IMG/VR virus record: IMGVR_UViG_3300046170_000097
Coordinates: 1-30,192 of that record
Origin: a virus
Length of the DNA: 30,192 bases
Strand: one strand, 5' to 3'
This document shows positions 8,681-27,722 of the stretch, piece by piece. Position 1 is the stretch's first letter; every line of letters begins with the position of its first letter. The notes beneath the pieces are model-generated. The model was not told the DNA's origin, made no database searches, and was given only the letters and a program-made list of their open reading frames with translations. The position numbers and the translations under genes were made by a program.

Positions 8681-8722
8681 ATATATATAACTTAGTTAGT
8701 ACATATTTGTACCATAGGCAAT

Positions 8723-8740
8723 TTGTTATAAATATAACAA
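8723..8740. promoter_or_regulatory. Perfect palindrome upstream of the tail operon
   Basis: TTGTTATA, two A residues, then TATAACAA form a perfect inverted repeat with 8-bp arms. It lies 43 bp upstream of the start of the tail operon at 8680. Its size and position suit an operator for a dimeric regulator of late transcription. I found no clear TAnnTTTG element near it, so the promoter itself is not placed. Confidence 0.45.
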
Positions 8741-8780
8741 AATAATAAACAAAAACGTACAACAAATCCAAAAAAAAACA

Positions 8781-8972
8781 GTTACTTATAAGTAGTATCC
8801 GTGGCTACGGTCAAAAACGTAGACGCGGAACGCCACTGAGCGATATAAAAATATATATGATATCGTATCTTACCGTATAAGGAGGTCTTGGGGATACTAT
8901 ATTCTTTTCTCAAATTTAGTACAATACAGATATATACAGATGTCTACGTCCGCATTTGGGGATGCTACCGTA
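8781..8972. other. Non-coding stretch with nested inverted repeats
   Basis: No convincing gene lies in 8681-9400. Inside it, TACTTATAAGTA (8783-8794) is palindromic. TAGTATCC (8793-8800) pairs with GGATACTA (8892-8899). GTGGC (8801-8805) pairs with GCCAC (8832-8836), enclosing TACG/CGTA (8806-8809, 8818-8821). ACGTAGAC (8817-8824) pairs with GTCTACGT (8942-8949). TACGGT at 8806 has partners ACCGTA at 8872 and 8967. Several foldings compete, so this may be a structured RNA, a replication site or a packaging site. The function is unknown. Confidence 0.4.
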
Positions 8973-9110
8973 AACATCCATTTAGCAGTCGGCTTAAGCC
9001 ATTTCTATTTAGGTTGATTTGGTTAAAGGTGGGTACTTACCCCTGGCATCATTCATTTTACGTTAATACAACTTTATTCCGAAATATCCAAATATTTCTG
9101 TACTTATTTA

Positions 9111-9143
9111 TTGGCTTTATTTAAAAAGATATTCGTATCTTTG
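9111..9143 (+). promoter_or_regulatory. Possible plus-strand promoter (Bacteroidota type)
   Basis: TATCTTTG at 9136-9143 fits the TAnnTTTG -7 element. TTG lies at 9112-9114, about 21 bases upstream, near the long end of the usual spacing. It would drive transcription to the right into a gene-free region. It is the only credible plus-strand promoter I found. Confidence 0.35.
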
Positions 9144-9148
9144 CCGGT

Positions 9149-9362
9149 TTTTTCTCTGTTATAGATAAAATTGATAGGAAAGGAGAGGCGGCATAAACCC
9201 AAACAATACCTATTTTTGATTCTCAGCTACTTATATTTTTTTACGGCCATAAAAAAAGCCCCAATAAAGGGGCTAATGCGTGTCAAACATCCTTTCTGCT
9301 GCTTGCCGATTAGCAAGTTTCAACCATTCGTGATGGCCTTAGTGGGAAACACACTATTTTTG
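9149..9362 (+). ncRNA. Candidate plus-strand non-coding RNA
   Basis: Downstream of the plus-strand promoter lies a run of local hairpins: AGCCCC/GGGGCT (9257-9274), CTTGC/GCAAG (9302-9317), CCAT/ATGG (about 9324-9336) and TAGTG/CACTA (9340-9356). The last is followed by TTTT, as in a weak terminator. An open frame that crosses this DNA starts only with TTG and runs through the strong hairpin, so coding is unlikely. A small RNA of about 210 nt is possible. The evidence is structural only. Confidence 0.3.
9250..9274 (-). terminator. Intrinsic terminator after the accessory gene cluster
   Basis: On the minus strand AGCCCC-TTTATT-GGGGCT is followed by seven T residues, a six-bp stem with four G:C pairs and a proper T-tract. 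It lies about 135 bp past the last gene of the accessory cluster (9409-9561), whose transcript it would end. Read on the plus strand it has no T-tract. Confidence 0.75.
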
Positions 9363-9408
9363 TATTGTATTGCCTGTTTTGTGATCGATTGTTATATTTT
9401 TGGCTTTA

Positions 9409-9815: not shown

Positions 9816-9843
9816 CAAATGTAAGCAATTTAATACTGCCCAA
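9816..9843 (-). promoter_or_regulatory. Promoter P1 of the accessory cluster
   Basis: Read on the minus strand, TTG (9843-9841), a 17-bp spacer and TACATTTG (9823-9816) match the Bacteroidota primary-sigma promoter. The TTG abuts the first of the 11-bp spaced GTTA elements. The same layout recurs at 11201-11228 and 12679-12706. It would drive the 44-, 26- and 50-residue genes. Confidence 0.7.
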
Positions 9844-9885
9844 TGTTAAGCCAATGTTAAGAAATTGTTACCAAATTGTTAAGGG
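9841..9885 (-). repeat. Four 11-bp spaced GTTA elements upstream of P1
   Basis: Plus-strand GTTA begins at 9845, 9856, 9867 and 9878, an exact 11-bp period, in the context AATGTTAAG or ATTGTTA. One element per helical turn on the same face suggests cooperative binding of a regulator immediately upstream of the -33 element. Confidence 0.65.
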
Positions 9886-11200: not shown

Positions 11201-11228
11201 CAAACATAAGGCACCTATTGTAGCTTAA
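11201..11228 (-). promoter_or_regulatory. Promoter P2 of the accessory cluster
   Basis: On the minus strand TATGTTTG (11208-11201) fits TAnnTTTG. The element 17 bp upstream is TTA instead of TTG (11228-11226), set exactly as in P1 and P3. The first GTTA of the upstream array begins two bases further on. It would drive the genes from 11176 to 9904. Confidence 0.65.
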
Positions 11229-11277
11229 TGTTAACTTAATGTTAAGAAATATGCATCCAATGTTAAGAAATTGTAAA
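11226..11277 (-). repeat. 11-bp phased GTTA elements upstream of P2
   Basis: GTTA begins at 11230, 11241 and 11262, with a variant GTAA at 11273. The spacings are 11, 21 and 11 bp, that is one, about two and one helical turns. The context AATGTTAAGAAAT matches the arrays at 9841-9885 and 12704-12733. Confidence 0.6.
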
Positions 11278-11330
11278 CAGAAAAGCCCTACACCAATGTA
11301 GGAAATGCCCTACAGAGATGTAAGGCAAAC

Positions 11331-11404
11331 CCTACTGCGTTTAAGAATTACCCTACTGCGTTTAAGAACCTACTGCGTTTAAGAACCTACTGCGTTTAAG
11401 AATT
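11331..11404 (-). repeat. Four-copy iteron-like array with core TTAAACGCA
   Basis: The plus-strand unit TACTGCGTTTAAGAA occurs at 11333-11347, 11354-11368, 11371-11385 and 11388-11402. The starts are 21, 17 and 17 bp apart, and the last three form a clean 17-bp tandem repeat. An A/T-rich stretch (about 11403-11440) adjoins it. Direct repeats beside A/T-rich DNA are the usual form of an iteron-type replication origin or a multi-site operator. Single copies of the same motif are scattered over the genome. Confidence 0.75.
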
Positions 11405-11440
11405 ATATTTTTATTTTCTCAACCACTTAAGAAAAATTTT

Positions 11441-11725
11441 TCAAATATACATCGCATCGTAATCGTGAATCGATTCCCAATATTTTACTGCGTTCTTATA
11501 ACTTCCTGTTGATCCTGCCTTGACTTCATCACGTGAAGGAATATAATTACCATACGTATCCTTGTGGCTTTGCTTGGGCAGCATACAAGCTCCGGAGCTT
11601 AGTAACTCCATCGCTTGCCTTCCTACAGTACCTTCCAGGTGCCATACTGATCCGTTGTCTATTAGGCGTTGCATTACATCAACGCCATTCTCCTTTTGCA
11701 GTTTTCTAATCTTCTTGTAGTTCAT
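11441..11725 (-). CDS. 94-residue conserved phage protein of unknown function
   Basis: The ATG at 11725 gives MNYKKIRKLQKENGVDVMQR. An upstream TTG would add two residues. The sequence continues GSVWHLEGTVGRQAMELLSS, GACMLPK and YGNYIPSRDEVKAGSTGSY, a pattern I recognise from hypothetical proteins of Bacteroidota phages and of their hosts. It has no transmembrane segment. It overlaps the upstream 51-residue gene by 20 bp and is the last gene of the P3 unit. Confidence 0.6.
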   Translation of the reverse strand: MNYKKIRKLQKENGVDVMQRLIDNGSVWHLEGTVGRQAMELLSSGACMLPKQSHKDTYGNYIPSRDEVKAGSTGSYKNAVKYWESIHDYDAMYI

Positions 11726-11861
11726 TGTCAATTAATTTATTCAGTTCATATATCTGTTTTTCTATTAGCTTCTTAGAGCTATCTTTTGGGCTTATGCAGG
11801 AATTTATGTCTCTAAACAAATCCCTGCAGTCCTCTACCAATTTAAGTGCCTCATCATCCAT
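11706..11861 (-). CDS. 51-residue acidic helical protein, unknown function
   Basis: The ORF runs from an ATG at 11861 to a TAG at 11706-11708. The product MDDEALKLVEDCRDLFRDIN... is charged and helical, with two Cys residues (C12, C22) and an end rich in Asn, Glu and Leu. The start lies 1 bp past the previous TAA, and the 3' end overlaps the next gene by 20 bp, as expected in a compact operon. Confidence 0.5.
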   Translation of the reverse strand: MDDEALKLVEDCRDLFRDINSCISPKDSSKKLIEKQIYELNKLIDNELQED

Positions 11862-12744: not shown

Positions 12745-12779
12745 GTGTCAAGTTTGTCACCTTTGTCAAGTTTGTCAAA
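12745..12779 (-). repeat. Four-unit 9-bp tandem repeat (ACTTGACAA on the minus strand)
   Basis: Plus-strand GTCA begins at 12747, 12756, 12765 and 12774, every 9 bp, in the context TTTGTCAAG or TTTGTCACC. It lies directly between the P3 array and two TTAAACGCA motifs. The period is not helical, so it may bind a different protein or be a simple replication-slippage product. Confidence 0.6.
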
Positions 12780-12783
12780 AACC

Positions 12784-12821
12784 CTACTGCGTTTAAGAAT
12801 TACCCTACTGCGTTTAACGAT
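12784..12821 (-). repeat. Two further TTAAACGCA motifs upstream of P3
   Basis: Plus-strand CTACTGCGTTTAAGAATTA (12784-12802) and TACTGCGTTTAACGAT (12806-12821) are spaced 21 bp apart, the same spacing as the first pair of the 11.33-kb array. Both P2 and P3 thus have the order: TTAAACGCA motifs, phased GTTA array, promoter. Confidence 0.7.
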
Positions 12822-12949: not shown

Positions 12950-14161
12950 CTACCTAATAGTATAAGAACCTTTTGTGCGATTTACTAAAACATATTGAGC
13001 TGCATACCTGATAGCATCAATACAGTGGTTCCATTTATCTACAGGCTTTGTCTGACCCTTAGTGGCCCATACGTAATTATTAAGCTCTTTAATCAGCTCT
13101 GTGGAGTCAGGATCAACTATTAAGTCATAGTCTTGTAGGAGTGCGATACCGGACAAGATAGACCCACTGCGTTTAACGGTCGGGGTAATGTTACATCCTT
13201 TCAATTTAATCTCCTTAATCAGCCGTGGTTCTGCAGAGTCCGACACTATGAGGTGCGGCCCCGCATAACGAATATTAAAGTCTGCTATTTGTGTAGTAGA
13301 CATTCCTGTCCTGGCATACATTACCTTTAGGAATATCCGCTTATTACCTTTGTCGATGGCCAGCTTCACAAGTGTAGTGGGGTCAACAGAGAAACCGAAA
13401 TCCTGTCCGAAGATAGTCTCATAGTTATCGTTAAATTCTCCTACTCTCCAATTGGTAAATATAACACCCTCTTGCTTTTCCATCCATCCACCAAGTATTT
13501 GGTGTGTGTACTTCTCTGGTCTACGTCTACGTATCTCTGCTATCTGATTCAGGAACGACTGCGACAGGTTATCAGTGTTATCTAAGTATGTCGTATGTAT
13601 ATATGTAATGCCTGACTTAATACCGTTGAAGCCCTCGGGAATGTCTCTGTTGGCGTAGAAACGCCCCCAGATCCAGTGTTCTTTAGTGGTTGGGTTAAGT
13701 ATCAGTATAACTCTATTGGGTTTAGTCTTGACCCTAACAGACTGATCAATCTTATCGAATGTGTCCTCGTCTATCAGCTCTTCAGCCTCATCCAGGACAA
13801 AGGTGGTTATTGCGTTTAACGATTTGAGTGATGCTGTCTGATTCCCTGAGGCTGTGCGTATCCCTTTAAACATAATCGATGAGCCTGTCTTTATGTTTGT
13901 TATCTCGTCCTTCGTTATGCGAAAGTCCTCGACAACTCCCATAAGCTCCAGCTTCTCAATGAACTCAGGAATAATCGATGAAGATGCAGATACCATCGTA
14001 TACCGTGTAAAAAGTATCTTATGTCCTTTCTCGTATGTTAGGAGCAGTAAGAATACGTTAACAGCAAAAGACTTACCAGACCCTCGACCACCTGTGGTGA
14101 TAAAGTATCTAGAGTCATTACCAAACGATTTATACTTCGGGTTCAGATTCGGTACCTTCAT
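12950..14161 (-). CDS. terL: Terminase large subunit
   Basis: This 403-residue DNA-packaging motor has a Walker A motif GGRGSGKS at residues 24-31, a Walker B motif FVLDEAEE at 121-128 and a C-terminal RNase H-like nuclease. The nuclease acidic residues are visible at D254 (GQDFGFSVD), D308 (LIVSDSAEP) and D382 (NHCIDAIRYA). The length and motif order match the PBSX/Terminase_3 group. It would pump DNA into the prohead through the portal and cut it. The gene overlaps the small-subunit candidate by 32 bp. Two TTAAACGCA motifs lie inside it (13165-13180 and 13808-13824) in different codon frames. Confidence 0.95.
   Translation of the reverse strand: MKVPNLNPKYKSFGNDSRYFITTGGRGSGKSFAVNVFLLLLTYEKGHKILFTRYTMVSASSSIIPEFIEKLELMGVVEDFRITKDEITNIKTGSSIMFKGIRTASGNQTASLKSLNAITTFVLDEAEELIDEDTFDKIDQSVRVKTKPNRVILILNPTTKEHWIWGRFYANRDIPEGFNGIKSGITYIHTTYLDNTDNLSQSFLNQIAEIRRRRPEKYTHQILGGWMEKQEGVIFTNWRVGEFNDNYETIFGQDFGFSVDPTTLVKLAIDKGNKRIFLKVMYARTGMSTTQIADFNIRYAGPHLIVSDSAEPRLIKEIKLKGCNITPTVKRSGSILSGIALLQDYDLIVDPDSTELIKELNNYVWATKGQTKPVDKWNHCIDAIRYAAQYVLVNRTKGSYTIR
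13165..13180 (-). repeat. TTAAACGCA motif inside terL
   Basis: Plus-strand CACTGCGTTTAACGGT. It is read in terL as Thr-Val-Lys-Arg-Ser-Gly, with frame ...AAA CGC AGT. Confidence 0.6.
13808..13824 (-). repeat. Second TTAAACGCA motif inside terL
   Basis: Plus-strand TATTGCGTTTAACGATT. Here terL reads it as Ser-Leu-Asn-Ala-Ile (TCG TTA AAC GCA), a different frame from the other terL copy. That argues for selection on DNA, not on a peptide. Confidence 0.6.
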
Positions 14162-14552
14162 CTTCAGGTGTAATGTCGATTATGTCTTCTATTTCTTTTG
14201 GCTTCTCTGAGCCTGTAAATATGTTTACGATAGAGAAGTCTATATCCTTTGCTTGGGACAGCGCATCAGGATTATCCATTGCCTTACCGTATACATACTC
14301 AATAACCATCTTACGGTCGTACTGCGAGTTCTCTGCCTTTTCAGCAACCATCTTCCAAAAGTTAGCCTCAGACCCATAAACCTCTTCTATCGCATTGGTA
14401 GCAAGTATCTTTGACCTGTTCTTCTTAGCCTTGTTTATATTAGCAGGAGTAGCCATAGTCTTCCGGACAAGTGCATCGCCACGCTTTGCACCGTTACCCT
14501 TCCGACCATCGGTCTTCTTCATATACTTACGTTCTGGCTTTCGTTTAGGCAT
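14130..14552 (-). CDS. Putative terminase small subunit
   Basis: This 140-residue protein has a very basic N-terminus (MPKRKPERKYMKKTDGRKGN), a helical middle (about residues 50-95, EEVYGSEANFWKMVAEKAEN) and an acidic tail (DIIDITPEDEGTESEPEV). Its place directly before terL, with a 32-bp overlap, and this composition suit the DNA-recognition subunit of the terminase. I see no definite helix-turn-helix, so the call rests mainly on position. Confidence 0.55.
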   Translation of the reverse strand: MPKRKPERKYMKKTDGRKGNGAKRGDALVRKTMATPANINKAKKNRSKILATNAIEEVYGSEANFWKMVAEKAENSQYDRKMVIEYVYGKAMDNPDALSQAKDIDFSIVNIFTGSEKPKEIEDIIDITPEDEGTESEPEV

Positions 14553-14890
14553 TACTTAAAATTACTTATTTTATCTTTATATTCATCTAAAGAATAATAA
14601 ACCAAAAGCTCTTCTCCAGGAGCTATATCTTCCTCTGTATATAACATTCTTTTGCTTCTGCCATATTCATTATCTTTATACACTATGGAACAATTTGGAT
14701 TTGAACTATGATTTATAAATCCGCCTAACGGAGTTCTGATCCATTCAGCTTCCATATACAAAAAAATATGTGTGATTCCAAGATAAGTTTCTGCCTCTAT
14801 ATATTCGTTAGCGAATAAGCCTAGACCATCAATCCTACTGCGTTTAATGGTAAGAGAAGGTGGTAGCGGCCTATAGGTTTCTTCCTTCAT
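14552..14890 (-). CDS. SET-domain protein, putative protein lysine methyltransferase
   Basis: From the ATG at 14890 the protein has 112 residues and is almost only a SET domain. Its elements in order are SRIDGLGLFA (18-27), the TPLGGFINHSSNPNC motif ending at Cys67 that helps form the active site, and GEELLVYYSL (92-101) with the family's C-terminal Tyr. SET enzymes transfer methyl from S-adenosylmethionine to lysines. I see no separate post-SET Cys cluster. Similar stand-alone SET proteins occur in marine phages, but their targets are unknown. A TTAAACGCA motif overlaps residues 14-19. Confidence 0.8.
   Translation of the reverse strand: MKEETYRPLPPSLTIKRSRIDGLGLFANEYIEAETYLGITHIFLYMEAEWIRTPLGGFINHSSNPNCSIVYKDNEYGRSKRMLYTEEDIAPGEELLVYYSLDEYKDKISNFK
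14836..14850 (-). repeat. TTAAACGCA motif inside the SET-domain gene
   Basis: Plus-strand TACTGCGTTTAATGG. It encodes Thr-Ile-Lys-Arg-Ser-Arg at the start of the SET domain. Confidence 0.6.
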
Positions 14891-15086
14891 ATATCCTATC
14901 GTATAATTCCCATATAGCATCATACCATTCGGTTTTACTATATATCTTTTCTCCTAATTTAGTCTGACCCTTATACTCTATTTGTATACGGTAATCCAAT
15001 CCTTCAGGGATTGGGTATATCTTATAGCCTTTATTGAAACAGTAACTTTGAGCTTCCATATTCCTAGAAGCTTCCAGTCGTTTCAT
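14871..15086 (-). CDS. 71-residue conserved phage protein of unknown function
   Basis: I chose the ATG at 15086, giving MKRLEASRNMEAQSYCFNKG, which overlaps the upstream gene by 23 bp. A shorter start at MEAQSY is possible, and a longer frame to 15131 exists. The core YKIYPIPEGLDYRIQIEYKG and EWYDAIWELYDRIYE resembles small proteins of flavobacterial phages. The fold is probably a small alpha/beta unit; the role is unknown. Confidence 0.5.
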   Translation of the reverse strand: MKRLEASRNMEAQSYCFNKGYKIYPIPEGLDYRIQIEYKGQTKLGEKIYSKTEWYDAIWELYDRIYEGRNL

Positions 15087-15645
15087 AAGAGCCGATAATT
15101 TCCGTTTTTTGGTTCCTCGGTTCAATTGCAAATCCTTTTAACATTACACCTATTCTAAATTCAGCATCATCAAGTTTGTCACTTGGTATCTTAAGCAACA
15201 AGTCTACAAGACGCTCAATGTCTTTACGATAAGGTCTGACGTTACTTAATTGTAACTGAAGGTCAGTTATTTTGTTTTTCAGATCATCTATCTCTAAGTC
15301 TCTTTTATCTACACTTTCATAAACATCTCCTAGACTACCGAACACCTCAACACAAGTATCGTACATCTTCTTGTTTAATGGAGATAAAAGTATATCCTCA
15401 TTAAAGTTATTCATAGCGTGCAGTACTGTAGCGTGGTTCTTATTCATATACTTGGCTACGTAGTTCTTAGCACCTATCCTAACACCAGACCTACACAAGT
15501 ATTCGTGTGTTATATTATAGAATATAGAACGAGCCATAACATTCTTATGGTCTCTTACTTTGCTTCTAAGGTCTCTGCCTGTAACTGTTTTTACTATCTT
15601 CTCTATCCTTGACACTTCTGATGCTATCTCACTGTTTATCGTCAT
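15064..15645 (-). CDS. DnaA domain IV-like DNA-binding protein
   Basis: Residues of about 24-85 of this 193-residue protein resemble the C-terminal DNA-binding domain of DnaA. A basic helix (VRDHKNVMARSIFYNITHEY) is followed by the signature-like helix-turn-helix VAKYMNKNHATVLHAMNNF (about 63-81). In bacterial DnaA the matching stretch is GRDHTTVLHA. Here the Asp and first Thr are Asn70 and Ala72, while His71 and Thr73 remain. There is no AAA+ domain; the rest is coiled-coil-like (about 110-140) with a helical tail. It may mark a phage origin or regulate transcription, and the dispersed TTAAACGCA motif is a candidate binding site. Confidence 0.7.
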   Translation of the reverse strand: MTINSEIASEVSRIEKIVKTVTGRDLRSKVRDHKNVMARSIFYNITHEYLCRSGVRIGAKNYVAKYMNKNHATVLHAMNNFNEDILLSPLNKKMYDTCVEVFGSLGDVYESVDKRDLEIDDLKNKITDLQLQLSNVRPYRKDIERLVDLLLKIPSDKLDDAEFRIGVMLKGFAIEPRNQKTEIIGSYETTGSF

Positions 15646-15919
15646 TTTCTTCTTTGTTTAAATAATTTGTTAATGTTAATGTAGTACACAATTGGCACGC
15701 CAATAGTATTCCTTCACACTCTTCGTATGCCTCTAGTTCTTCGAACAGGTCAACGCTTATATATAGTTCCTTTAGTGGAACACCAGCAATTATATCGTGG
15801 CAAGTTAGGATAAAGTATTCTTCTACTATGGTACTTCTAAAATCCCACTCCTTCAATATAGTTGCTAATTGCTTCGCCAACCTTTTGTTTGCCCTGCTGT
15901 ATGTCATCTGAATTTGCAT
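15629..15919 (-). CDS. Protein of unknown function, up to 96 residues
   Basis: The frame ends at 15629, overlapping the DnaA-like gene by 17 bp. With the ATG at 15919 it overlaps the nuclease gene by 83 bp, which is long for this genome, so the true start may be a later non-ATG codon. The shared part (VEEYFILTCHDIIAGVPLKE, then CEGILLACQLC) is hydrophobic-acidic with four Cys. No family is recognised. Confidence 0.45.
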   Translation of the reverse strand: MQIQMTYSRANKRLAKQLATILKEWDFRSTIVEEYFILTCHDIIAGVPLKELYISVDLFEELEAYEECEGILLACQLCTTLTLTNYLNKEENDDKQ

Positions 15920-16580
15920 CGTATGTTTTTACCTTTAGTGTTTTTTTGTCTACTATTACAAATGTAAAGCTTTTTTTCTTAAATATGGTCATATAAATGT
16001 ATGCTTGTGCATCATATCCGTAAAAGTCCATATTGTAGTGCCAAGAATCTATATCGGATGTCGTCTTGAGGTCGACAATCCGATCACCATTCAGGCAGTC
16101 TGCTTTCGCTCTGAAGGGGAGTCCATCAACGTATCCGATTCCTGGTAACTCATATTCACCTCCTGTAAATAATTCATTTGCTGTTGGGTTGTCCAGAACA
16201 GCATCAACAATGCTTTGCGCCCATACTTTCTCCTTAGATAGCATAATCTCTTTACCTTCCAAAGAAGGGTCTTTAACAGCTTCCTTATAGCCTTTGTTAC
16301 GCCTAGTAGCCACATCAACAAAATGGTAATAGTCATCTAGTTTATCTTTTTCTAATAGTGAAACGTGAATAAGCCTACCCTCTCTGAGTGGCTTCATATT
16401 ACTGTCCAAAGGTTCTCGGTTACCTAAGTAGCTGTCGATACCCTCTAGTAATTTCTTGCAGGACGATGAGGACAAGGATGCCTTGTTGAGATATCCATAG
16501 TAGAACTCATTATCGTACATCTTTTCGACTATATCATCTATAGCCCAGTCAGTACCATCAAGCAGTCTTATTGTTTCCAT
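15837..16580 (-). CDS. PD-(D/E)XK exonuclease, RecB/Cas4-like
   Basis: This 247-residue protein carries the motifs of phage RecB-like nucleases. These are an N-terminal GRLIH (His72), a catalytic Asp at 161 (RAKADCLNG), the D-L-K triad at 170-172 (RIVDLKTTSD), and a conserved YGYDAQAYIYM helix carrying Gln. Such enzymes resect double-stranded DNA and work with an annealing protein. An ERF-type annealing protein and a putative ssDNA-binding protein are encoded upstream at 19.8-20.7 kb, so this may be the exonuclease partner of a phage recombination system. Confidence 0.75.
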   Translation of the reverse strand: METIRLLDGTDWAIDDIVEKMYDNEFYYGYLNKASLSSSSCKKLLEGIDSYLGNREPLDSNMKPLREGRLIHVSLLEKDKLDDYYHFVDVATRRNKGYKEAVKDPSLEGKEIMLSKEKVWAQSIVDAVLDNPTANELFTGGEYELPGIGYVDGLPFRAKADCLNGDRIVDLKTTSDIDSWHYNMDFYGYDAQAYIYMTIFKKKSFTFVIVDKKTLKVKTYDANSDDIQQGKQKVGEAISNYIEGVGF

Positions 16581-16704: not shown

Positions 16705-17044
16705 TCTCTATTTCTTTTTGCAGATTAGCCAATGCTCTCCAAGCCACTTTAGCTGAATGTCTTACGCCATCTGTATCTATTGTTCCTGCATCGATGAGGT
16801 GACGCATTAAAGCGTCTAACTCATCTCCAGATTTACTCCTGTCCCAATGTAATGGCTTATCAGGATTATGCTGTTGCTGTCCTGCATAACTGCATTTAGC
16901 TACTTCTTTTATAGCATCAGGAAAGTAATTAATTACTCCGGAATAAACAGGTATCTTTTTTCTATCTTCTTTTGGGGGGTTTACAAAGTCGCTGTAATCC
17001 GATACATATCCTCCTCCGTAAAATGATTTTTTAGGATTATTCAT
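16694..17044 (-). CDS. dATP/dGTP diphosphohydrolase-like protein (DUF5664 type)
   Basis: Residues of about 30-115 fit the phage DUF5664 pattern: KIPVYSGVINYFPDAIKEVA, then HWDRSKSGDELDALMRHLID, and SAKVAWRALANLQKEIE. Conserved polar residues include the D-E-L-D and R-H-L set. The family is named for a dATP/dGTP diphosphohydrolase domain, which suggests a role in the nucleotide pool during replication. The N-terminal 30 residues are unlike the family. The start is coupled to the upstream stop as ATGA. I infer the activity from family pattern only. Confidence 0.6.
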   Translation of the reverse strand: MNNPKKSFYGGGYVSDYSDFVNPPKEDRKKIPVYSGVINYFPDAIKEVAKCSYAGQQQHNPDKPLHWDRSKSGDELDALMRHLIDAGTIDTDGVRHSAKVAWRALANLQKEIENES

Positions 17045-17436
17045 AATTTCGTTGCTTCTTTTATGTTTAAATATGCTACTTCTTTTTCTATCCTAGCCCC
17101 ATTAGCGAACTCAGTAGTAGCTGGATTTCTTCTGTTGATTTCCCAGTTAGGTTCAACCCAAAATAAATTAAATGCGAATAAACCACTTGGAGTGCTACAA
17201 ATATACATAGGTATGTCGAGATTGTCTTCACAGACCTCAATAATCGCATCAAATTTCTTTTTTTCAATAAGTAATGTGTCATAATGTTTTCTTCTGCATT
17301 TAAGTTCTATACGGTGCCTAACCTTTGGCGAGTAGCAATCCCATCGACTCATTTGGCTTTTAGCCTTAACAAGATCAGGATATGTACTGCGTTTAAGAAA
17401 GTCGAATAAATCGGCTTCTTTATTTATAGGTTCCAT
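17041..17436 (-). CDS. Putative PD-(D/E)XK nuclease-like protein
   Basis: The 131-residue protein contains VRHRIELKCRRKHYDTLLIE followed by KKKFDAIIEV. An E-L-K motif with downstream basic residues is the signature of many PD-(D/E)XK nucleases. The later part reads MYICSTPSGLFAFNLFWVEP, with strands typical of that fold. Similar proteins are common in flavobacterial phages, but their substrate is unknown. A TTAAACGCA motif (17385-17400) overlaps residues of about 13-17 (FLKRST). The stop and the next start overlap as ATGA. Confidence 0.5.
   Translation of the reverse strand: MEPINKEADLFDFLKRSTYPDLVKAKSQMSRWDCYSPKVRHRIELKCRRKHYDTLLIEKKKFDAIIEVCEDNLDIPMYICSTPSGLFAFNLFWVEPNWEINRRNPATTEFANGARIEKEVAYLNIKEATKL
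17385..17400 (-). repeat. TTAAACGCA motif inside a nuclease-like gene
   Basis: Plus-strand TACTGCGTTTAAGAAA. It encodes Phe-Leu-Lys-Arg-Ser-Thr near the N-terminus. Confidence 0.6.
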
Positions 17437-17839
17437 ATAATGTTTTTAATGGTTTAAATATACTGTTGATAAAACAAGAATTACAGTTAGTTGGCTTTCT
17501 GTTTTCATTGAAAACCCTATTATAAACCTCAATCATTCTATTTACTTGTGCGGCATCTAGTCTATCAACTCCACTTTCAATTATATCACTAACAAAATTA
17601 TATTCATCTTCAAGCAAACAATTAGGCTTCTTATATCTAAATTTCTTGTTAAGGACTTCCTTACGCTCGTCGCAACCGCAATCTTCTCCGGCTAAGAACT
17701 TCACAGCCTTTTTTATTCCTGTAGCTGTAGTAATCTTTTCTATGGTATCACCCAGCCCTTTTGGGGCTGAGTCATACTTGGCTTTCCACTCCTTATATGC
17801 TTTGGTTCGTTTATCTTTTGGTGCTTCTGGTATGTTCAT
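17420..17839 (-). CDS. Conserved Cys-containing phage protein of unknown function
   Basis: This 139-residue protein has a conserved core GLGDTIEKITTATGIKKAVK, then FLAGEDCGCDERKEVLNKKF, and a C-terminal NCNSCF. The CxC and CxxC pairs could bind zinc or form a redox site. The pattern is common in flavobacterial phages, where the gene often accompanies replication genes, but I know of no function. It overlaps the sigma-factor gene end as ATGA and the next gene by 17 bp. Confidence 0.6.
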   Translation of the reverse strand: MNIPEAPKDKRTKAYKEWKAKYDSAPKGLGDTIEKITTATGIKKAVKFLAGEDCGCDERKEVLNKKFRYKKPNCLLEDEYNFVSDIIESGVDRLDAAQVNRMIEVYNRVFNENRKPTNCNSCFINSIFKPLKTLYGTYK

Positions 17840-18396
17840 ATCTTATCGTAATCTTGATTGAAAAAGTCTTCTATGTCTTCACCGAACTTTTCTTTAATAA
17901 TCTTTCTGTAGTTCTTGCAAGAATTATATATGCTCGTAAGTGAAATCTTTGTATCGCTAGCAATGTCTCTAAGAGATTGATCAGTATAATAGTATAGCTT
18001 GAATAATTTTTGGTCGTACCAATGCCAAGTAGAAACTTCCTTATCAATGGCTTCAAATATATTAAAATATGCCTCCTCCATAAGGTCATTTTCCTTTCTT
18101 TCTTCTGGAACTTCCGCAAGAGACGAAAGGATATTGACGTTTTCAATAGCGGAATAGTTTTTATTGATTTCTGCCTTGTAGCTCTTTTTAGAGTCATAGA
18201 ACAGGTTGCGTAAAGTGATATATATAAAGTAAGAATTAACCTCACCATCTTTAATAATTTTATTTGGTTTATCGACATATCTATTTATTCTCAAGTACAT
18301 ATCCTGAACTAAATCATTAGCCAGGTGTATATCATTACATATGGACTTAGCCATCTGTATCCACTCTTTATGCCTCTTGGTCAGTATCTCCCACAT
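17836..18396 (-). CDS. RNA polymerase sigma-70-like factor (ECF size)
   Basis: The 186-residue protein has a region 2-like helix with LANDLVQDMYLRINRYV (25-41), which in sigma factors contacts core polymerase and the -10 DNA. A variable linker follows, then a region 4-like helix-turn-helix (QSLRDIASDTKISLTSIYNS, about 139-158) for the upstream element. This is the two-domain build of an extracytoplasmic-function sigma. A phage copy probably redirects host polymerase to middle or late promoters. Its target may differ from the TTG/TAnnTTTG promoters, since none is evident before the tail or capsid operons. Confidence 0.7.
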   Translation of the reverse strand: MWEILTKRHKEWIQMAKSICNDIHLANDLVQDMYLRINRYVDKPNKIIKDGEVNSYFIYITLRNLFYDSKKSYKAEINKNYSAIENVNILSSLAEVPEERKENDLMEEAYFNIFEAIDKEVSTWHWYDQKLFKLYYYTDQSLRDIASDTKISLTSIYNSCKNYRKIIKEKFGEDIEDFFNQDYDKI

Positions 18397-18559: not shown

Positions 18560-18979
18560 CTAATATAGTAATTTTATTTCAATATAATCGCTTTCTCCGT
18601 AAAACTTTTTCAAATCTTTTACCTCAACGATATTTTGGTCCTGCTCGAATATAGTTCCTTCCAAAGCATCTATGAATGCTTTGTTCAGGTTGTCTAGTAA
18701 GTCTGGCTTAGTTGCCTTTGGCATACCTATTATTCTGCGTTTAAGAGCTGTGGACTTGGTAAATGCAAAACAATAATGCAGATGCTCCACTATAATCGGG
18801 GTGCCTGCTCTTATTATTTCAAACCCATCTTCTACTTGGGACATTGCGATTTGCGCTATGTCTTTTTTAAAGTCAAGTATTTTCTTTGGTGTGTAAGCAA
18901 TACCGTTCCGGCCTCTTCTAAAGGATTGGTGCGGTGTTGGTCTTATATCAAAATGAAGTGTCAATTCTGAGTATGTCAT
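18560..18979 (-). CDS. RusA-like Holliday junction resolvase
   Basis: This 139-residue endonuclease-like protein has the RusA signature KPDLLDNLNK (91-100), followed by DALEG (104-108), an Asp at 114 and a Lys-rich KDLKKFYG segment. RusA dimers cut four-way DNA junctions with metal held by the acidic residues (here Asp93, Asp96, Asp114). That suits resolving recombination intermediates before packaging. It overlaps the ATPase gene by 32 bp. A TTAAACGCA motif (about 18733-18748) encodes ALKRR at residues 78-82. Confidence 0.8.
   Translation of the reverse strand: MTYSELTLHFDIRPTPHQSFRRGRNGIAYTPKKILDFKKDIAQIAMSQVEDGFEIIRAGTPIIVEHLHYCFAFTKSTALKRRIIGMPKATKPDLLDNLNKAFIDALEGTIFEQDQNIVEVKDLKKFYGESDYIEIKLLY
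18733..18748 (-). repeat. TTAAACGCA motif inside the RusA-like gene
   Basis: Plus-strand TTCTGCGTTTAAGAGC. The core is intact and the flanks are partly degenerate. Confidence 0.5.
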
Positions 18980-19766
18980 CGATTTTATCTATTATTCGTG
19001 GAGTGCCTTGCCTATCTACCTCAAAACTAAACTGCTCAAAGGGGTAGGACCTACTGCGTTTACATATAACGTCAACTATGTCTTCGTTATCTTCCTTTAG
19101 TTTAAGTTGTATCTGTGTCTCTGTTTTCTTCTCTAGGAATGAACCTAAGTGTCCTGTAGGTTTATCGCTATTAAAATTACTATGGATAACTACCATAATA
19201 TGAACATTGTACTCTTCGCTCCATCTCATTATCTCCTGGACTATAGCTGCTGATTCTTTAATGTCGTTAACATCTAGCACTAGGTCAGCAACACCATCTA
19301 TAATCACAAGGCCTGTTTCATCTTGATACTTATCTAAGTACCAATCAATAAACTTTACTCTTTCGTTTGCAGGTAATGTCCTCATTGCATAAGGATCATA
19401 ATCCAGGCCATCATATTTAGATATATCTAGGACTCTACGAAATACCTTCTGAGCGTGGAATATACCTTGCTCAGTGTCAAAGTGAACTAACCTAAGATTA
19501 TCTCTATGGCCTCTTATTGCGCCTGTGCAGTCCGTTTTGCCGGACAAGTAGGCTCCTGCAATCATTGATATAAAGAATGTCTTCTTACTTTTTGGTGGTG
19601 CTTGTACAAAGCTGAAGTTTCCATAGGTTCCTATGGGTGTTGGATATGTGTCGTCTTTTGATTTGTATGTACCATAGCTAATAGCTATTGGCGGGTACTC
19701 AACCTCTGCGTATGGGTTTACCGATAATTCTGCCCTTAATTGTTCGTATCTTTCGTCTAATGTCAT
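18948..19766 (-). CDS. RecA-like AAA ATPase, putative replicative helicase or helicase loader
   Basis: The 272-residue protein has a nucleotide-binding loop at 55-65 (QAPPKSKKTFF), a Walker B strand at 153-161 (LVIIDGVAD) and a sensor-like VIHSNFN segment (about 193-199). These features match RepA/DnaB-type ATPases of phage replication modules. The P-loop lacks the usual second Gly (PPKSKKT instead of GxxxxGKT), a variant that still keeps the Lys-Thr pair. It stands between the RusA-like gene and the ssDNA-binding/ERF pair. I infer a role in DNA unwinding or loading at replication or recombination sites. Confidence 0.7.
   Translation of the reverse strand: MTLDERYEQLRAELSVNPYAEVEYPPIAISYGTYKSKDDTYPTPIGTYGNFSFVQAPPKSKKTFFISMIAGAYLSGKTDCTGAIRGHRDNLRLVHFDTEQGIFHAQKVFRRVLDISKYDGLDYDPYAMRTLPANERVKFIDWYLDKYQDETGLVIIDGVADLVLDVNDIKESAAIVQEIMRWSEEYNVHIMVVIHSNFNSDKPTGHLGSFLEKKTETQIQLKLKEDNEDIVDVICKRSRSYPFEQFSFEVDRQGTPRIIDKIDDILRIDTSF
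19052..19067 (-). repeat. TTAAACGCA-like motif inside the ATPase gene
   Basis: Plus-strand TACTGCGTTTACATAT. The core has one mismatch (GTAAACGCA on the minus strand). It encodes Cys-Lys-Arg-Ser-Arg. Confidence 0.5.
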
Positions 19767-20129: not shown

Positions 20130-20693
20130 TTATTTATTTACAAGTTTGATTTTCGCTGCATCTGAAATATTATATTTCATCTGCACCTTTTCTATACTAC
20201 CTCCATTGTCCATATAGTTCTTTACTTTATCGAACTCAGGGGTATTCGGTTTAAGAATAGCTTTCTTTACATCAACCTTTTTAGGTTGAGCAGTAGCTGT
20301 CTTTCCGTGTGTGTTAGTCGCATCAGCATCTTTGGTATCATCAATTAAGAATAAACCGTTTAACGCATACTTGCGAGCGTATGAAGAAGAAGATCCAAAC
20401 GACTGGGCAATATCCATTCCCTTTCTGTTTGGGTCAACCCCAGCCTGCGCACTTACAGTGATTTCGTCAGTGCCATCAGTAATCTTAGCCAATGCCTCAA
20501 TAAATGGAATTTCTCCATTGTAGAATTGGTCGTCTATAGTCAGAACAAGTCCCTGCTCTGCGAGAAGCGGTTTGACAGCCTCCAGGATGTCTTCACAGCT
20601 TCGGTAGTTATACTTGCCAAAGTTATTCCTTTGGTTTTTCGGTGCCTTCAGTCTCCCCTGAATAGCAACCAGCTTATTTACTAGCGTAGTCAT
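20130..20693 (-). CDS. ERF-family single-strand annealing protein
   Basis: Residues of about 1-130 match the ERF recombinase pattern: NNFGKYNYRSCEDILEAVKP, then LLAEQGLVLTIDD, the signature FGSSSSYARKYALNGLFLID and DDTKDAD. A Pro/Lys linker and a small helical C-terminus follow. ERF proteins anneal complementary single strands during phage recombination and genome circularisation, usually with an exonuclease and an ssDNA-binding protein, both of which have candidates here. The ATG at 20693 begins four bases after a TAnnTTTG element, so its mRNA is probably leaderless. Confidence 0.85.
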   Translation of the reverse strand: MTTLVNKLVAIQGRLKAPKNQRNNFGKYNYRSCEDILEAVKPLLAEQGLVLTIDDQFYNGEIPFIEALAKITDGTDEITVSAQAGVDPNRKGMDIAQSFGSSSSYARKYALNGLFLIDDTKDADATNTHGKTATAQPKKVDVKKAILKPNTPEFDKVKNYMDNGGSIEKVQMKYNISDAAKIKLVNK

Positions 20694-20733: not shown

Positions 20734-20979
20734 TTATTTATTTATCTCTTCATACTCCTCACACTTAAAAGACAACATACTGACTTTTACATCCTTTTCG
20801 CGGCACTCCTGTTTGAGGCTTTTAATCAGCGTATTATTCTCTCTGCATTCCAAATGTAAGCTAGCTACATATATAGCTATCTCATTCAGTGATTTCACGA
20901 CCTGAGGGTCGTGGTCTTTTAGGGTCTGTGATATTAAGTCAAAATTATTATAAAAGTTTATTTCGTGTATTGCATCCAT
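20734..20979 (-). CDS. 81-residue coiled-coil protein of unknown function
   Basis: I chose the ATG at 20979 (MDAIHEINFYNNFDLISQTL). The longer frame to 21051 would add a Tyr/Leu-rich segment across an A/T-rich leader. Residues of about 35-78 (LHLECRENNTLIKSLKQECR, EKDVKVSMLSFKCEEY) have heptad-like hydrophobic spacing and Cys residues, suggesting a coiled coil. It precedes the ERF promoter and is the first gene after the A/T-rich region. The function is unknown. Confidence 0.5.
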   Translation of the reverse strand: MDAIHEINFYNNFDLISQTLKDHDPQVVKSLNEIAIYVASLHLECRENNTLIKSLKQECREKDVKVSMLSFKCEEYEEINK

Positions 20980-21040
20980 ATCTTTGTGTTTTATGCTGCT
21001 AATATATAAAACTTTTTTTAAATACAATGCATATAATATT

Positions 21041-21067
21041 ATTACATACAATTTATTTGTATGTAAT
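21041..21067. other. Hairpin with perfect 11-bp arms
   Basis: ATTACATACAA (21041-21051) and TTGTATGTAAT (21057-21067) are perfect inverted repeats around TTTAT. There is no T-tract on either side. It stands at the edge of a long A/T-only stretch, upstream of the replication genes, and suits a protein-binding or origin-associated hairpin. Confidence 0.55.
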
Positions 21068-21137
21068 AGTATATATAATATATAATATAATAATAATATA
21101 TAATATAATAATAAAGTATAATATATAATATAATATA
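21068..21137. repeat. A/T-only low-complexity tract, candidate unwinding element
   Basis: About 70 bp with almost no G or C, built from TATAATA and AATAATA words. It lies between two hairpins and just upstream of the replication operon. Easily melted tracts of this sort are common at replication origins. A role as a DNA unwinding element is inferred. Confidence 0.5.
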
Positions 21138-21169: not shown

Positions 21170-21571
21170 TTATTTTATAGTTCTTTCGTGTATTATTTCA
21201 AATGGAAATATGGAGTCAGCTTTCATATCATCATTATCCACATAGATATATTTATTGTTTATACCTATCCTTGTGAATCCGACCTCTAGTAGAGCCGCTA
21301 TTATCCGATACCGTTTATAAGGATGTTTGCATTGTATTACGGCTGCTCTGCCGATCAAGTGTGATGAATGTTCAAGTTCATTTATTTTACCTCTGCACCC
21401 GTAACAAACAAATCCTTTAAGTACTTTAAATTTCAGCTCGGCTAATTTCCTTGCTTCATCCAACATCTGCAGGAAATGTCTATCCATATTTTTAAAACCT
21501 GTAGAGTGCTTATCGCACCACTTACAGTCAAACTCTTCGTATTCGAAGTGCTTAAGCTCGTGTATACCCAT
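21170..21571 (-). CDS. Degenerate M15-peptidase paralogue, predicted inactive, with added Cys pairs
   Basis: This 133-residue protein aligns along its length with the endolysin at 22091-22447: HFEYEEFD to YFNYSEFD, ELEHSSHLIGRAAVIQC to GVESSSHLKGLAADIHC, and KYIYVDND to KFIHVDID. Of the three expected zinc ligands only His71 remains. The Asp is Val78 and the second His is Tyr. Instead there are two CxxC pairs (C16-K-W-C19 and C56-Y-G-C59), which could hold a structural zinc. It probably no longer cuts peptidoglycan and may bind cell wall or regulate the active enzyme. A TTAAACGCA motif abuts its start codon. Confidence 0.7.
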   Translation of the reverse strand: MGIHELKHFEYEEFDCKWCDKHSTGFKNMDRHFLQMLDEARKLAELKFKVLKGFVCYGCRGKINELEHSSHLIGRAAVIQCKHPYKRYRIIAALLEVGFTRIGINNKYIYVDNDDMKADSIFPFEIIHERTIK

Positions 21572-21586
21572 TGCGTTTAAGAATTA
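21569..21586 (-). repeat. TTAAACGCA motif at the start of the M15-like pseudo-enzyme gene
   Basis: Plus-strand CATTGCGTTTAAGAATTA. It fills the 12-bp gap between the upstream TAA and the ATG, and overlaps both. Confidence 0.6.
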
Positions 21587-21709: not shown

Positions 21710-22091
21710 TTTTCTTTCCTTTTTCCCAACTTCTTCCTACAAAGTAAGCACCGTAAACGGTAATCAGCAATGTTTGGAAGATTGGAATATATTCTTTTTG
21801 TACTTTAAATCCACCTATATTGCCATCCGTAAAAGCGAACAGCGTAAACATCACTGTCAGGAATACCAATACCATAGGACGTATGTTTTTTGACAAGAAC
21901 GAGTCCGACTGCATATCGTACTTCCAACGCTCCGTTACTTGGTCCTGCGCTTCCTTGTCAGCTTGCTCAAGCAGCTCCTGAAGCTTTTGCTTGGCCTCTA
22001 AGCGTTCTTCTTCACTTGTGTGGAGGTTGTCTATTACTTTTCCAATATCCTTCAGTAAACCGCCTGTAATGGCTTGAAATATCTTTTTCAT
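21690..22091 (-). CDS. Holin, 3TM / gene-transfer-agent holin type
   Basis: From the ATG at 22091 the protein has 133 residues. A charged coiled-coil N-terminal half (about 20-60) is followed by two clear hydrophobic segments, IRPMVLVFLTVMFTLFAF and YIPIFQTLLITVYGAYFVG, and a Lys-rich tail. The SKNIRPMVL...GAYFVGRSWEK pattern is typical of the GTA_holin_3TM family, which forms lesions in the inner membrane so the endolysin can reach the wall. The start is coupled to the endolysin stop (TAATG), as expected in a lysis cassette. Confidence 0.75.
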   Translation of the reverse strand: MKKIFQAITGGLLKDIGKVIDNLHTSEEERLEAKQKLQELLEQADKEAQDQVTERWKYDMQSDSFLSKNIRPMVLVFLTVMFTLFAFTDGNIGGFKVQKEYIPIFQTLLITVYGAYFVGRSWEKGKKNGEKDN

Positions 22092-22447
22092 TAGTATAGC
22101 CAAATTAAGTCTTGTGATTTATCAGGATCAATATCAACGTGAATGAATTTTTCAGCAACCCCAATGCGTTTAAAGCCTACATCTAAAAGACAGTTAATTA
22201 AGTTATGTCTATCTCTTGAATTGTCGCAATGAATATCCGCAGCCAATCCTTTAAGATGGCTGCTAGATTCCACACCGTTAACCTCTTCATTCCAAAAAGG
22301 AGTTCTGAATCCGCTTGTTATGTGGATAGGCTTATCAAACTTATCTCTAGCTTGATCTAACATTTCTAAAATACGCTTATCCATCATTTGACCACTACCT
22401 TGAACATCAGGGCTGTCAAACTCGCTATAATTAAAGTATTTTAACAT
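22091..22447 (-). CDS. Endolysin, M15 family peptidase (M15_3 type)
   Basis: I chose the ATG at 22447 (MLKYFNYSEFDSPDVQGSGQ; 118 residues); a longer frame would add six residues. It contains ITSGFRTPFWN (43-53), the zinc-binding SSHLKGLAADIH with His64 and Asp71, and FIHVDID with His103, the full ligand set of zinc D-Ala peptidases of this family. It should cut peptide crosslinks of the host wall. It has no signal peptide, so it depends on the adjacent holin. A TTAAACGCA motif covers GFKRIG (about 91-96). Confidence 0.85.
   Translation of the reverse strand: MLKYFNYSEFDSPDVQGSGQMMDKRILEMLDQARDKFDKPIHITSGFRTPFWNEEVNGVESSSHLKGLAADIHCDNSRDRHNLINCLLDVGFKRIGVAEKFIHVDIDPDKSQDLIWLY
22162..22178 (-). 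repeat. TTAAACGCA motif inside the endolysin gene
   Basis: Plus-strand CAATGCGTTTAAAGCCT. It encodes Gly-Phe-Lys-Arg-Ile-Gly. The paralogue at 21170-21571 has GFTRIG at the matching place and no motif there. Confidence 0.5.
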
Positions 22448-22475
22448 AAACCGCAATGTACGCAAATATCACACA

Positions 22476-25967: not shown

Positions 25968-26157
25968 TATTAACAGCGTCTATAGTGTTGTTTATGATTA
26001 AGCTAGATATCTTATCATAAAGAGATGTGCCTAAATAGTTCTGTATGTGTATGTCTTGACTTACCTCAATAAACTGAACAAACTTGTCAGCATCCACAAC
26101 CCCACCTACGATGGATTTGCGTCTTAAATCATCAGTTGTTATGAATAGTGCCTTCAT
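25843..26157 (-). CDS. Head-tail connector-like protein, N-terminal part (frameshifted gene)
   Basis: The 104-residue frame starts MKALFITTDDLRRKSIVGGV, then DADKFVQFIEVSQDIHIQNY and LGTSLYDKISSLI, typical of a small connector-like protein encoded next to the portal. Family-like sense stops near residue 65, after NNTIDAVN. The remaining 39 residues are out-of-frame reading of the C-terminal half. The true 3' part is in the frame at 25647-25967. The 26-bp overlap with the portal gene is usual here. Confidence 0.65.
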   Translation of the reverse strand: MKALFITTDDLRRKSIVGGVVDADKFVQFIEVSQDIHIQNYLGTSLYDKISSLIINNTIDAVNNAGLQDTPERLYNTDAYMVCSVRLLYVCFLPGKQRRCIQTP

Positions 26158-27364
26158 CTTCCTTCTTTTTAAATAGTGACTTTACTCGATCTATCGCAGA
26201 CAACTTCTCTCCTGTCTCCTCTTCACGTTTAATCTTTGTTTCAATATTATCTAATTGAGTAAACTCAATAGGTTGTAGAGTAACAAAATATAAGTTTAGG
26301 TCAATCTCATTGAACGCTAACATAGTTTTTAAACACTCTATAATTTTTTCTTGGAATGGTCGTATAACAATGTTATCCATAAGTACCGAAGCTGTTCTAA
26401 GCTCCTCCGCATTATTACCAAACCCTGTATTGTCTTTTATTCCAAGAAGTATCGGAGAAACAACTCTGTGACCGAGCATAATTTTCTCACGAGCCTCATC
26501 AGCAAGGAACTGATATTGTGCGTGCGCATCAGGGAGGTGGATAGGCTCTATGTCCGCTTGACGGTCTGGGTCTTCATTGAACGCTAAAATGAACTTTCCT
26601 GAGTTAGATGTCCCTCCGAATTTATCTTGGATTTTGCTTTCAATTAGTTGTTGAGCCTCCTCGTCAGGAACTCCATTATTAAAGTTGATTAATAGTGATG
26701 GCTGTAGGCCATTAAGAATGTTGTTTATATGGTAGTTAGATACCTCTTCTTCTAATGAACAGTACTGTAAACAACCGTGATAATCTACAGGTGCATAGTA
26801 ATAAAACCCTGGTCTGTATGGTTTGATTATATAAAGCTCTCTATGCTCATTACTTTTTCCGTTACCAAATGTGGGTATTCTTTTAGGATTGTCAGACGGC
26901 TTATATTCGCTCCACTTAGGGTGGTAGTAATATGCTTTTATCTTTCCTTCGTCTGCTTTTTCTGCTCTTAGCGTTTCCATAGGGAAATGCGTAAGAGAAG
27001 TAATTCTAGTCTTGCTTTTATTGTAAACAACCTGAACAGCACCTTGACCAAGTAACTTGTAATCATTAACTATCTTTTTTACTTCTTCGTCTTTTAATAT
27101 CATTTTAAAACGAGCAAACATCTCAGGTTTTTCTTCGCTGTCTGTTGCGCTCAATCCTCTTCCGTAAATCATATCTACGATACCATTCACGCAGCAAGAG
27201 TTTGTTGGGCTACTTAAATAATTATCAATTAAATCTCCAAAGTAATTATTATCTTGTCCGTAGGTAACCCAATCATTTCTGTAGTCCTCCTTAATTTCAG
27301 GAATAGTATATCCCTGTAGGTTTACTACTCTAATTGTTCCTGTCGGTTTATTCTTTCTAGGCAT
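26132..27364 (-). CDS. Portal protein
   Basis: This 410-residue protein has portal-like features: NDWVTYGQDNNYFGDLIDNY near the N-terminus, a middle domain with LGQGAVQVVYNKSKTRITSL, a helical core (SNYHINNILNGLQPSLLINF and EAREKIMLGHRVVSPILLGI) and a Lys/Glu-rich tail. The portal is the dodecameric ring through which terminase packs DNA. It is encoded next to connector-like and capsid genes, but more than 12 kb from terL, an unusual order. No frameshift is visible in this gene. Confidence 0.75.
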   Translation of the reverse strand: MPRKNKPTGTIRVVNLQGYTIPEIKEDYRNDWVTYGQDNNYFGDLIDNYLSSPTNSCCVNGIVDMIYGRGLSATDSEEKPEMFARFKMILKDEEVKKIVNDYKLLGQGAVQVVYNKSKTRITSLTHFPMETLRAEKADEGKIKAYYYHPKWSEYKPSDNPKRIPTFGNGKSNEHRELYIIKPYRPGFYYYAPVDYHGCLQYCSLEEEVSNYHINNILNGLQPSLLINFNNGVPDEEAQQLIESKIQDKFGGTSNSGKFILAFNEDPDRQADIEPIHLPDAHAQYQFLADEAREKIMLGHRVVSPILLGIKDNTGFGNNAEELRTASVLMDNIVIRPFQEKIIECLKTMLAFNEIDLNLYFVTLQPIEFTQLDNIETKIKREEETGEKLSAIDRVKSLFKKKEDEGTIHNN

Positions 27365-27365
27365 A

Positions 27366-27722
27366 TTATATTGTTATATATTTTTCTCCAGTAGGAGCAG
27401 CACTATGCTCTGTATATTTACCTGTGTTTAGTGTATGTTTTTGTGTTCTGTCGGTCTGTGCCGTAACATAAACTTTATCCCTAAACAACAATGTAGAGCC
27501 TTGTTTAAGCTCCATAAAATAAATACTACCTTCAGAAAGTATTGAAAAGGTGCAAGGGATACTTATATAGTTACCATCAATGGTTGAGGTAAGGCCCGTC
27601 AAGGTTTCCGTTTCGCCAGTTCCATCTCTTTTAATAACTAAAGTAAGATCACTAGCCTCGACATAAGTTCTTGGTATAATCTTAATTATTTGCTCTTCAG
27701 TAGATGGAAGTAATACTTTCAT
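27366..27722 (-). CDS. Conserved structural protein of unknown function before the portal
   Basis: The 118-residue protein (MKVLLPSTEEQIIKIIPRTY, then LTLVIKRDGTGETETLTG, IYFMELKQGSTLLFRDKVYV) appears to be an all-beta fold. It matches a family found beside portal or tail tube genes in flavobacterial phages. It lies 1 bp ahead of the portal gene and after a terminator. Possibly a head or neck decoration protein. Confidence 0.55.
   Translation of the reverse strand: MKVLLPSTEEQIIKIIPRTYVEASDLTLVIKRDGTGETETLTGLTSTIDGNYISIPCTFSILSEGSIYFMELKQGSTLLFRDKVYVTAQTDRTQKHTLNTGKYTEHSAAPTGEKYITI

Follow-up and report, generated by a model that had tools for sequence, protein, structure and literature searches.

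A tandem repeat array in a phage genome as one cluster of putative directional regulator-binding sites

What is the role of four direct repeats lying close together in an intergenic gap of a phage genome? The question is raised by positions 11331–11402 of the IMG/VR virus record IMGVR_UViG_3300046170_000097, of which the first 30,192 nucleotides were analysed as a whole (hereafter, the window). An earlier note on this DNA had proposed an iteron-like replication origin or, alternatively, a control centre. Among the genes recognised in the window, all on the minus strand, are those for terminase (12950–14161), exonuclease (15837–16580), Erf (20130–20693) and portal (26132–27364). The closest named phage by terminase large subunit (TerL) is Nonlabens phage P12024L/S, with 53% identity, and therefore the host is probably a flavobacterium. 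We think that the array is most likely a cluster of putative directional regulator-binding sites. The observation is more interesting in that it belongs to a genome-wide directional code, and less so in that no origin is demonstrated.

The array, its surroundings and its recurrence in the window

The four direct copies described in the earlier note are found as exact 17-mers CCTACTGCGTTTAAGAA on the plus strand (11331–11347, 11352–11368, 11369–11385 and 11386–11402), and the exact 17-bp period of three of them is borne out, the start-to-start spacings being 21, 17 and 17. The array is also intergenic, in agreement with its proposed placement between transcription units: ORF 11441–11731 ends before it and the next gene (likely ATG at 11176) comes after it, both on the minus strand. 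The A/T-rich stretch that was thought to accompany the repeats is present as well, with 83% AT at 11403–11450; 0.9% of 48-bp windows are at least as rich. The stretch extends into the 3' end of ORF 11441–11731, upstream of the array in the transcription sense. The array flanks of related genomes contain 67% AT versus 66% genome-wide, that is, the A/T-rich flank is not conserved. The promoter P2, suggested about 105 bp downstream of the array, is probably a plus-strand sigma-70-like match at 11520–11547; this match lies inside a minus-strand gene, and the credible promoter is on the minus strand.

Read in the direction of transcription, the layout consists of the array, the hairpins, the TTAAC repeats, TATGTTTG at 11208–11201 and the ATG (Table 1). 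In the intergenic gaps of these genomes, 42 of about 70 pairs of adjacent TTAAC units are 11 bp apart, and the repeats look like binding sites in phase with the DNA helix, distinct from the 14-bp motif of the array. TTAACATT-like repeats occur directly upstream of TAnnTTTG boxes at 11222–11270 and at 9840–9883.

The earlier reader overlooked that further copies of the motif are spread over the genome and that all of them follow the transcription sense. Read in this sense the motif is TTCTTAAACGCAGTAGG, with TTAAACGCAGTAGG as its 14-letter core. The window has 14 copies of the 14-mer at ≤2 mismatches, all on the minus strand, versus 0.29 expected and a maximum of 2 in 100 dinucleotide shuffles, and because of these figures the array is not due to chance. 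TTAAACGCA is present 14 times on the minus strand and 0 times on the plus strand. Scanning of the window against Rfam gave no match, as did a DNA-level search of phage records with its 9.5–13.5 kb part, and no description of the motif was found in the literature, in which open-licence papers only were covered.

Several other features of the window deserve mention. The 728 bp at 8681–9408 contain no convincing gene, but a stem followed by a T-run, plus the inverted sequence GGATGTTTACGGTAGCATCC; they had no Rfam match, and a structured RNA or a second control region is possible there. About 3.7 tandem 9-mers (TGTCAACTT on the plus strand) are located at 12746–12778, between the TerL array and the next gene, and a 74-bp ATATTATA-rich tract at 21064–21137 lies upstream of ORF 20734–21051. 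Beside the TerL cluster, a SET-domain protein is encoded at 14552–14923 (PF00856, E 1.5e-10), which is found in one of 19 relatives (G019).

Table 1. Motif copies, neighbouring elements and genes discussed in the text (window coordinates)
Feature	Position	Strand	Basis
Pair of hairpins following the array; the one farther from it resembles a terminator	11286–11325	−	
TTAAC repeats lying between array and promoter, including two with a spacing of 11 bp	11222–11270	−	
TATGTTTG, fits the −7 box of flavobacteria (TAnnTTTG); the ATG at 11176 follows after 25 nt	11201–11208	−	consensus of PMC9723704
Array of four direct TTCTTAAACGCAGTAGG copies (minus-strand reading)	11331–11402	−	
Array of two copies, TCGTTAAACGCAGTAGG and TTCTTAAACGCAGTAGG, in the gap that follows TerL; position common to all 20 genomes	12783–12820	−	
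TerL, landmark	12950–14161	−	
Site TTAAACGCAGTGGG inside TerL; its 5-codon stretch ranks first for synonymous conservation	13163–13176	−	
Site TCGTTAAACGCAATAAC inside TerL; its stretch ranks second for synonymous conservation	13806–13822	−	
Intragenic site TTAAACGCAGTAGG in the SET-domain ORF	14834–14847	−	
DnaA domain-IV-like protein without AAA+ (PF08299, stand-alone); candidate reader ranked second	15064–15645	−	
Site near the start of ORF 17041–17436; same place in G009, G010, G018 and G019	17383–17399	−	
ECF-sigma-like protein (region 2 + HTH), PHROG 1740	17836–18396	−	PHROG 1740 and predicted fold
Weak intragenic site CTCTTAAACGCAGAATA in ORF 18560–18979 (RusA-like)	18731–18747	−	
Intragenic site GTAAACGCAGTAGG in ORF 18948–19766 (AAA ATPase)	19050–19063	−	
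Site over the start codon of the M15-peptidase-like gene 21170–21571	21567–21583	−	
Weak intragenic site TTAAACGCATTGGG in ORF 22091–22465	22160–22173	−	
Two sites, TTCTTAAACATAGTAGG and TTCTTAAACGCAATAAG, at the 3' end of ORF 27810–28370	27783–27816	−	

Conservation among relatives and drift in sister lineages

The motif was followed in 19 related IMG/VR genomes (G001–G019), which together with the window make 20 genomes. About 150 sites at one mismatch were counted in 20 related records, with a single orientation within each record; these records are those behind the related loci, and 19 of them are G001–G019. Essentially all copies in the 19 relatives point with transcription, and looser counts gave one reversed site, in G001. 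The information in the motif is limited to about 14–17 bp, and the exact tandem 30-mer is found in 42 stretches of viral contigs.

The position is conserved as well. In 20 of 20 genomes there is an array at most about 220 bp past the TerL stop codon, and this stop codon is itself often the TAA within a TTAAAC of the array. The deepest branches (G001, G003, G005 and G006) have the TerL-adjacent array only and lack the 11331 type. Window-like genomes possess a second array of that type 1.2–1.6 kb past the TerL one, and sometimes a third; that of the window is such a second array, 1.55 kb beyond the TerL-adjacent one. Window-like genomes carry further sites before the M15-peptidase gene, and before ORF 27366–27722 and portal. 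The site at the start of the M15-peptidase-like gene is shared by G009–G011 and G019, and the pair at 27783–27816 directly precedes a terminator hairpin, upstream of ORF 27366–27722 and the portal gene. Most genomes have in total two to four arrays besides intragenic sites.

The intragenic sites occur at the same codon positions in relatives, for instance at nt 984 of TerL, nt 702 of ORF 18948–19766 and nt 39 of ORF 17041–17436. When 62 distinct TerL sequences were compared, the two TerL sites were located in the windows ranking first and second of 399 for synonymous conservation, and therefore selection acts on the DNA or RNA letters, not on the protein alone. At the nt-984 site one sequence group has both AGA and GGA codons, which is consistent with loss of the whole site in that group. 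In our judgement it is highly probable that the motif represents a real family of protein-binding sites under selection.

Sister lineages, with a TerL identity of about 61%, were found via a search for relatives of the DnaA-like protein. Several of them keep a TerL-adjacent array in the same orientation with the motif changed to TTAAACATAGTAGG, and others have, also next to TerL, five or six copies of TTTAACATG[AG]GGG, none of them reversed. All motif classes have TT[AT]AAC in common. A fixed location with a changing sequence is the signature expected of a site that co-evolves with its protein. Regarding the spacing of the repeats, the distances between neighbouring sites in the tandem arrays of G001–G019 and of the sister loci are almost always odd: 91 distinct spacers have periods of 17, 19, 21, 23, 25, 27, 29 or longer odd values, versus 10 with even ones, the spacers of homologous arrays being non-independent in these counts. 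In the gap after the TerL array, the sister lineages L228 (about 12500), L211 (about 12450) and L196 (about 7950) have a T-run followed by alternating GTATACGCGCGCGC or GTGCGTGCGTG, stretches that are possibly Z-DNA-prone.

Candidate reader proteins and rival explanations

The flavobacterial −7 box has the consensus TAnnTTTG (PMC9723704). It is present in 24 of the 52 intergenic gaps with sites versus 42 of the 289 other gaps, and TTAACRTT repeats in 25/52 versus 5/289. The surroundings of the window array are arranged in this way too. The sites are associated with host-type promoters, and this richness of the site-bearing gaps therefore points to transcription control. We infer that transcription is probably the process in which the sites are read out. 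The alternative reading of the earlier note, a control centre, gains support from the several intergenic clusters and the conserved intragenic sites, all in one orientation.

In our opinion, the array is best explained as one cluster out of a genome-wide family of asymmetric 14-bp sites for a DNA-binding protein, reading TTAAACGCAGTAGG with transcription, in lytic flavobacterial phages. The members of this family are found where operons meet, across stop or start codons, and in a few places within genes that are conserved. A phage DNA-binding protein, most likely the ECF-sigma-like one, would bind them and control transcription in a direction-dependent manner. The effect might be to start or boost transcription of the downstream operon or, with the opposite sign, to pause or block polymerase coming from upstream. 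To this explanation as a whole, of directional, stoperator-like transcription-control sites read by a phage protein, we give about an even chance. Speaking against it are tandem arrays of 4–6 copies, which are unusual for promoters, the lack of a −10 element at a fixed distance, the sites that abut terminators or overlap a start codon, and three sigma-like proteins of other lineages (L198, L223 and L232) that come without arrays of the three motif classes.

The ECF-sigma-like protein is, on comparative grounds, most likely the best candidate reader. It belongs to PHROG 1740, "RNA polymerase sigma factor", has a predicted fold of the ECF sigma type and, like the DnaA-like protein, is present in all the genomes. 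When phages with the same motif are compared, no other window of the protein is as well conserved as its HTH segment ISLTSIYNSCKNY (0.93 vs 0.53). Drift of the motif between lineages is tracked by the recognition helix, which has NSC with TTAAACGCA, NS[IV] with TTAAACATA and GRSSIYNT with TTTAACATG; arrays of these three motif classes are absent in L198, L223 and L232, whose sigma-like proteins carry other helices. Each motif class is a single clade, the covariation resting on about three changes, and therefore it does no more than suggest a link; the motif would also be followed by other proteins with vertical inheritance. That the sigma-like protein reads the sites seems to us about equally probable as the contrary.

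The DnaA-like protein invoked in the earlier note does exist in the window, and in our first view, from its co-occurrence with the motif (PF08299 domain in 20/20 motif-bearing genomes), it was the sole reader. The sites would then be diverged DnaA boxes, from which this stand-alone domain-IV protein would act as a silencer or organiser. Its profile matches E. coli DnaA domain IV (1j1v), its predicted fold matches the DnaA–DNA complexes 3pvp and 1j1v, and the residues aligned with E. coli R399, R407 (which we take to be a DnaA contact residue) and H434 are invariant. TTAAACGCA has two mismatches to TTATNCACA, at positions 4 and 7, inside the usual tolerance of at most 2 mismatches to a TTATCCACA-type consensus (PMC5043019, where the base-contact positions of DnaA are also listed). 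Nevertheless, the match is modest, being obtained by chance in about 5% of cases over offsets and strands according to our estimate, and the likeness becomes weaker in the TTTAACATG lineage. When phages whose motif is identical are compared, conservation of helix 5 is no higher than 41% (rank 23 of 181), with the variants KNHAT, RDHAS, CNHAS and VHHTS. Moreover, flavophages such as Harreka_1 and phi46:1 have DnaA-IV proteins but not the motif, and a comparable oriented repeat was absent in the DnaA-IV flavophages Harreka_1, phi46:1, Arctus_1, part of phi46:3 and P12024L. The protein was demoted as sole reader because of the comparison of recognition-helix conservation, and the reading of the sites as its boxes now appears rather unlikely to us. 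The sigma-like protein is ranked above it. Stand-alone DnaA domain-IV proteins form a large family in viral contigs (451 loci) with variable recognition helices, which evolves much faster than TerL. Harreka_1, phi46:1 and phi46:3 have similar genes that carry the annotation DnaA protein.

An iteron-type origin, in which a DnaA-like phage initiator would bind the repeats and open the adjacent A/T-rich DNA, would agree with the direct repeats, with their lineage-specific sequence, with the DnaA-domain protein in the gene cluster before TerL and with the TerL-adjacent array being present in every genome and the sole one in deep branches. That conserved array, however, is not the one at 11331, which is missing in the deepest branches; most genomes have several arrays and intragenic sites (a single array is found only in G001, G003, G005 and G006), and the motif is dispersed. 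The A/T-richness beside the array is not a conserved property of the relatives' arrays, the DnaA-like protein is devoid of the AAA+ domain that melts origins, and its recognition helix is variable despite a constant motif. GC-skew, put forward in the earlier note as a check, was detrended for five circular relatives and has its minimum 12–22 kb away from the end of TerL, a weak signal, as the skew range clearly exceeds block shuffles in only 1/5 of them. The origin proposal is thus poorly supported, and we regard it as unlikely. The universal place beside TerL with a drifting sequence would also suit a packaging (pac) site bound by the small terminase, and ORF 14130–14552, which overlaps the TerL start, is positioned like a small terminase subunit. 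This ORF has no terminase family match, though, and sites are also found far from TerL, at conserved places inside other genes and in promoter-rich gaps, all of which leaves packaging very unlikely. Less probable still is an element acting in the transcript, where the repeats would bind an RNA-binding protein or take part in termination control. It would account for the strict orientation with transcription and for motif copies at gene 3' ends, sometimes within a terminator stem; several sites abut a terminator or form part of one. Terminators are nevertheless not enriched beside sites (13/61 clusters versus 44/269 site-free gaps), on which ground a terminator-associated element was rejected; in addition, the window has no Rfam match and many clusters are in promoter-rich gaps.

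Comparison with known systems and significance

The stoperators of Cluster A mycobacteriophages (L5, TipsytheTRex) are 13-bp asymmetric sites with 20–30 copies per genome, oriented with transcription and located in small gaps between genes; their versions differ by lineage and follow the cognate protein (PMC6550527; PMC9283540). The sites described here are likewise short and asymmetric (14 bp, about 5–17 per genome), transcription-oriented and in short gaps, and their sequence is lineage-specific and tracks the candidate protein, a likeness that is confounded by phylogeny. They differ in forming tandem arrays, and the candidate reader is ECF-sigma-like or DnaA-IV-like instead of a two-domain immunity repressor. 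A Phage_integrase domain was searched in 17 genomes and none was found; therefore there is no sign of lysogeny, and an immunity function is unlikely. Other asymmetric repeats are the SAS/ESAS of Cluster K mycobacteriophages, 13 bp long, almost all in one orientation and of unknown function, of which SAS lie 3–7 bp before start codons with a Shine-Dalgarno core and sometimes include the stop codon of the upstream gene (PMC3203893). Our sites share the shortness, asymmetry and single orientation, and some are over stop codons or near starts, but start-codon placement is seen at the M15 gene only, most sites being in post-stop arrays or intragenic.

Comparison with promoters and origins gives a similarly mixed result. 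Many −35 elements of ECF promoters contain AAC, which the shared TT[AT]AAC resembles, and the phage itself encodes an ECF-like sigma. However, the conserved block runs 8 bp past the AAC, the copies are tandem at 17–29 bp and there is no −10 at a fixed spacing: apart from a stretch rich in T that immediately follows the motif, and from signals left over from arrays or homology, no second element was found. An ECF promoter of the classical kind, with two elements, is hence unlikely. Compared with the DnaA boxes of bacterial oriC, the likeness lies in the 9-mer core two mismatches from TTATNCACA and in a DnaA domain-IV protein in every genome, whereas here no fused AAA+ initiator was found and the sites are scattered, all in one direction. 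The direct repeats of about 17 bp beside A/T-rich DNA recall the iteron arrays of plasmids and phages; the differences are several arrays plus single sites per genome, an irregular period and no recognised cognate Rep protein.

A more specific picture can be put forward tentatively, as possible rather than probable. The ECF-sigma-like protein of a lytic lineage would serve, instead of as a usual factor for two-element promoters, as the reader of dispersed, direction-locked 14-bp sites, forming a stoperator-like regulon without lysogeny. From one lineage to another the specificity would have changed together with the recognition helix, Cys being replaced by Ile/Val where GC in the site is replaced by AT.

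What seems valuable to us is that the tempting annotation as an iteron origin is corrected. If the favoured explanation is true, it would define the regulatory code of a group of marine flavobacterial phages that is abundant and for the most part uncultured, and the natural series of matched sites and proteins would offer a way to ask how a phage regulator changes its specificity. Orientation-locked sites are best known from actinobacterial temperate phages. A lytic case in Bacteroidetes with a different kind of reader would suggest that direction-dependent site families are a more general strategy of phages.
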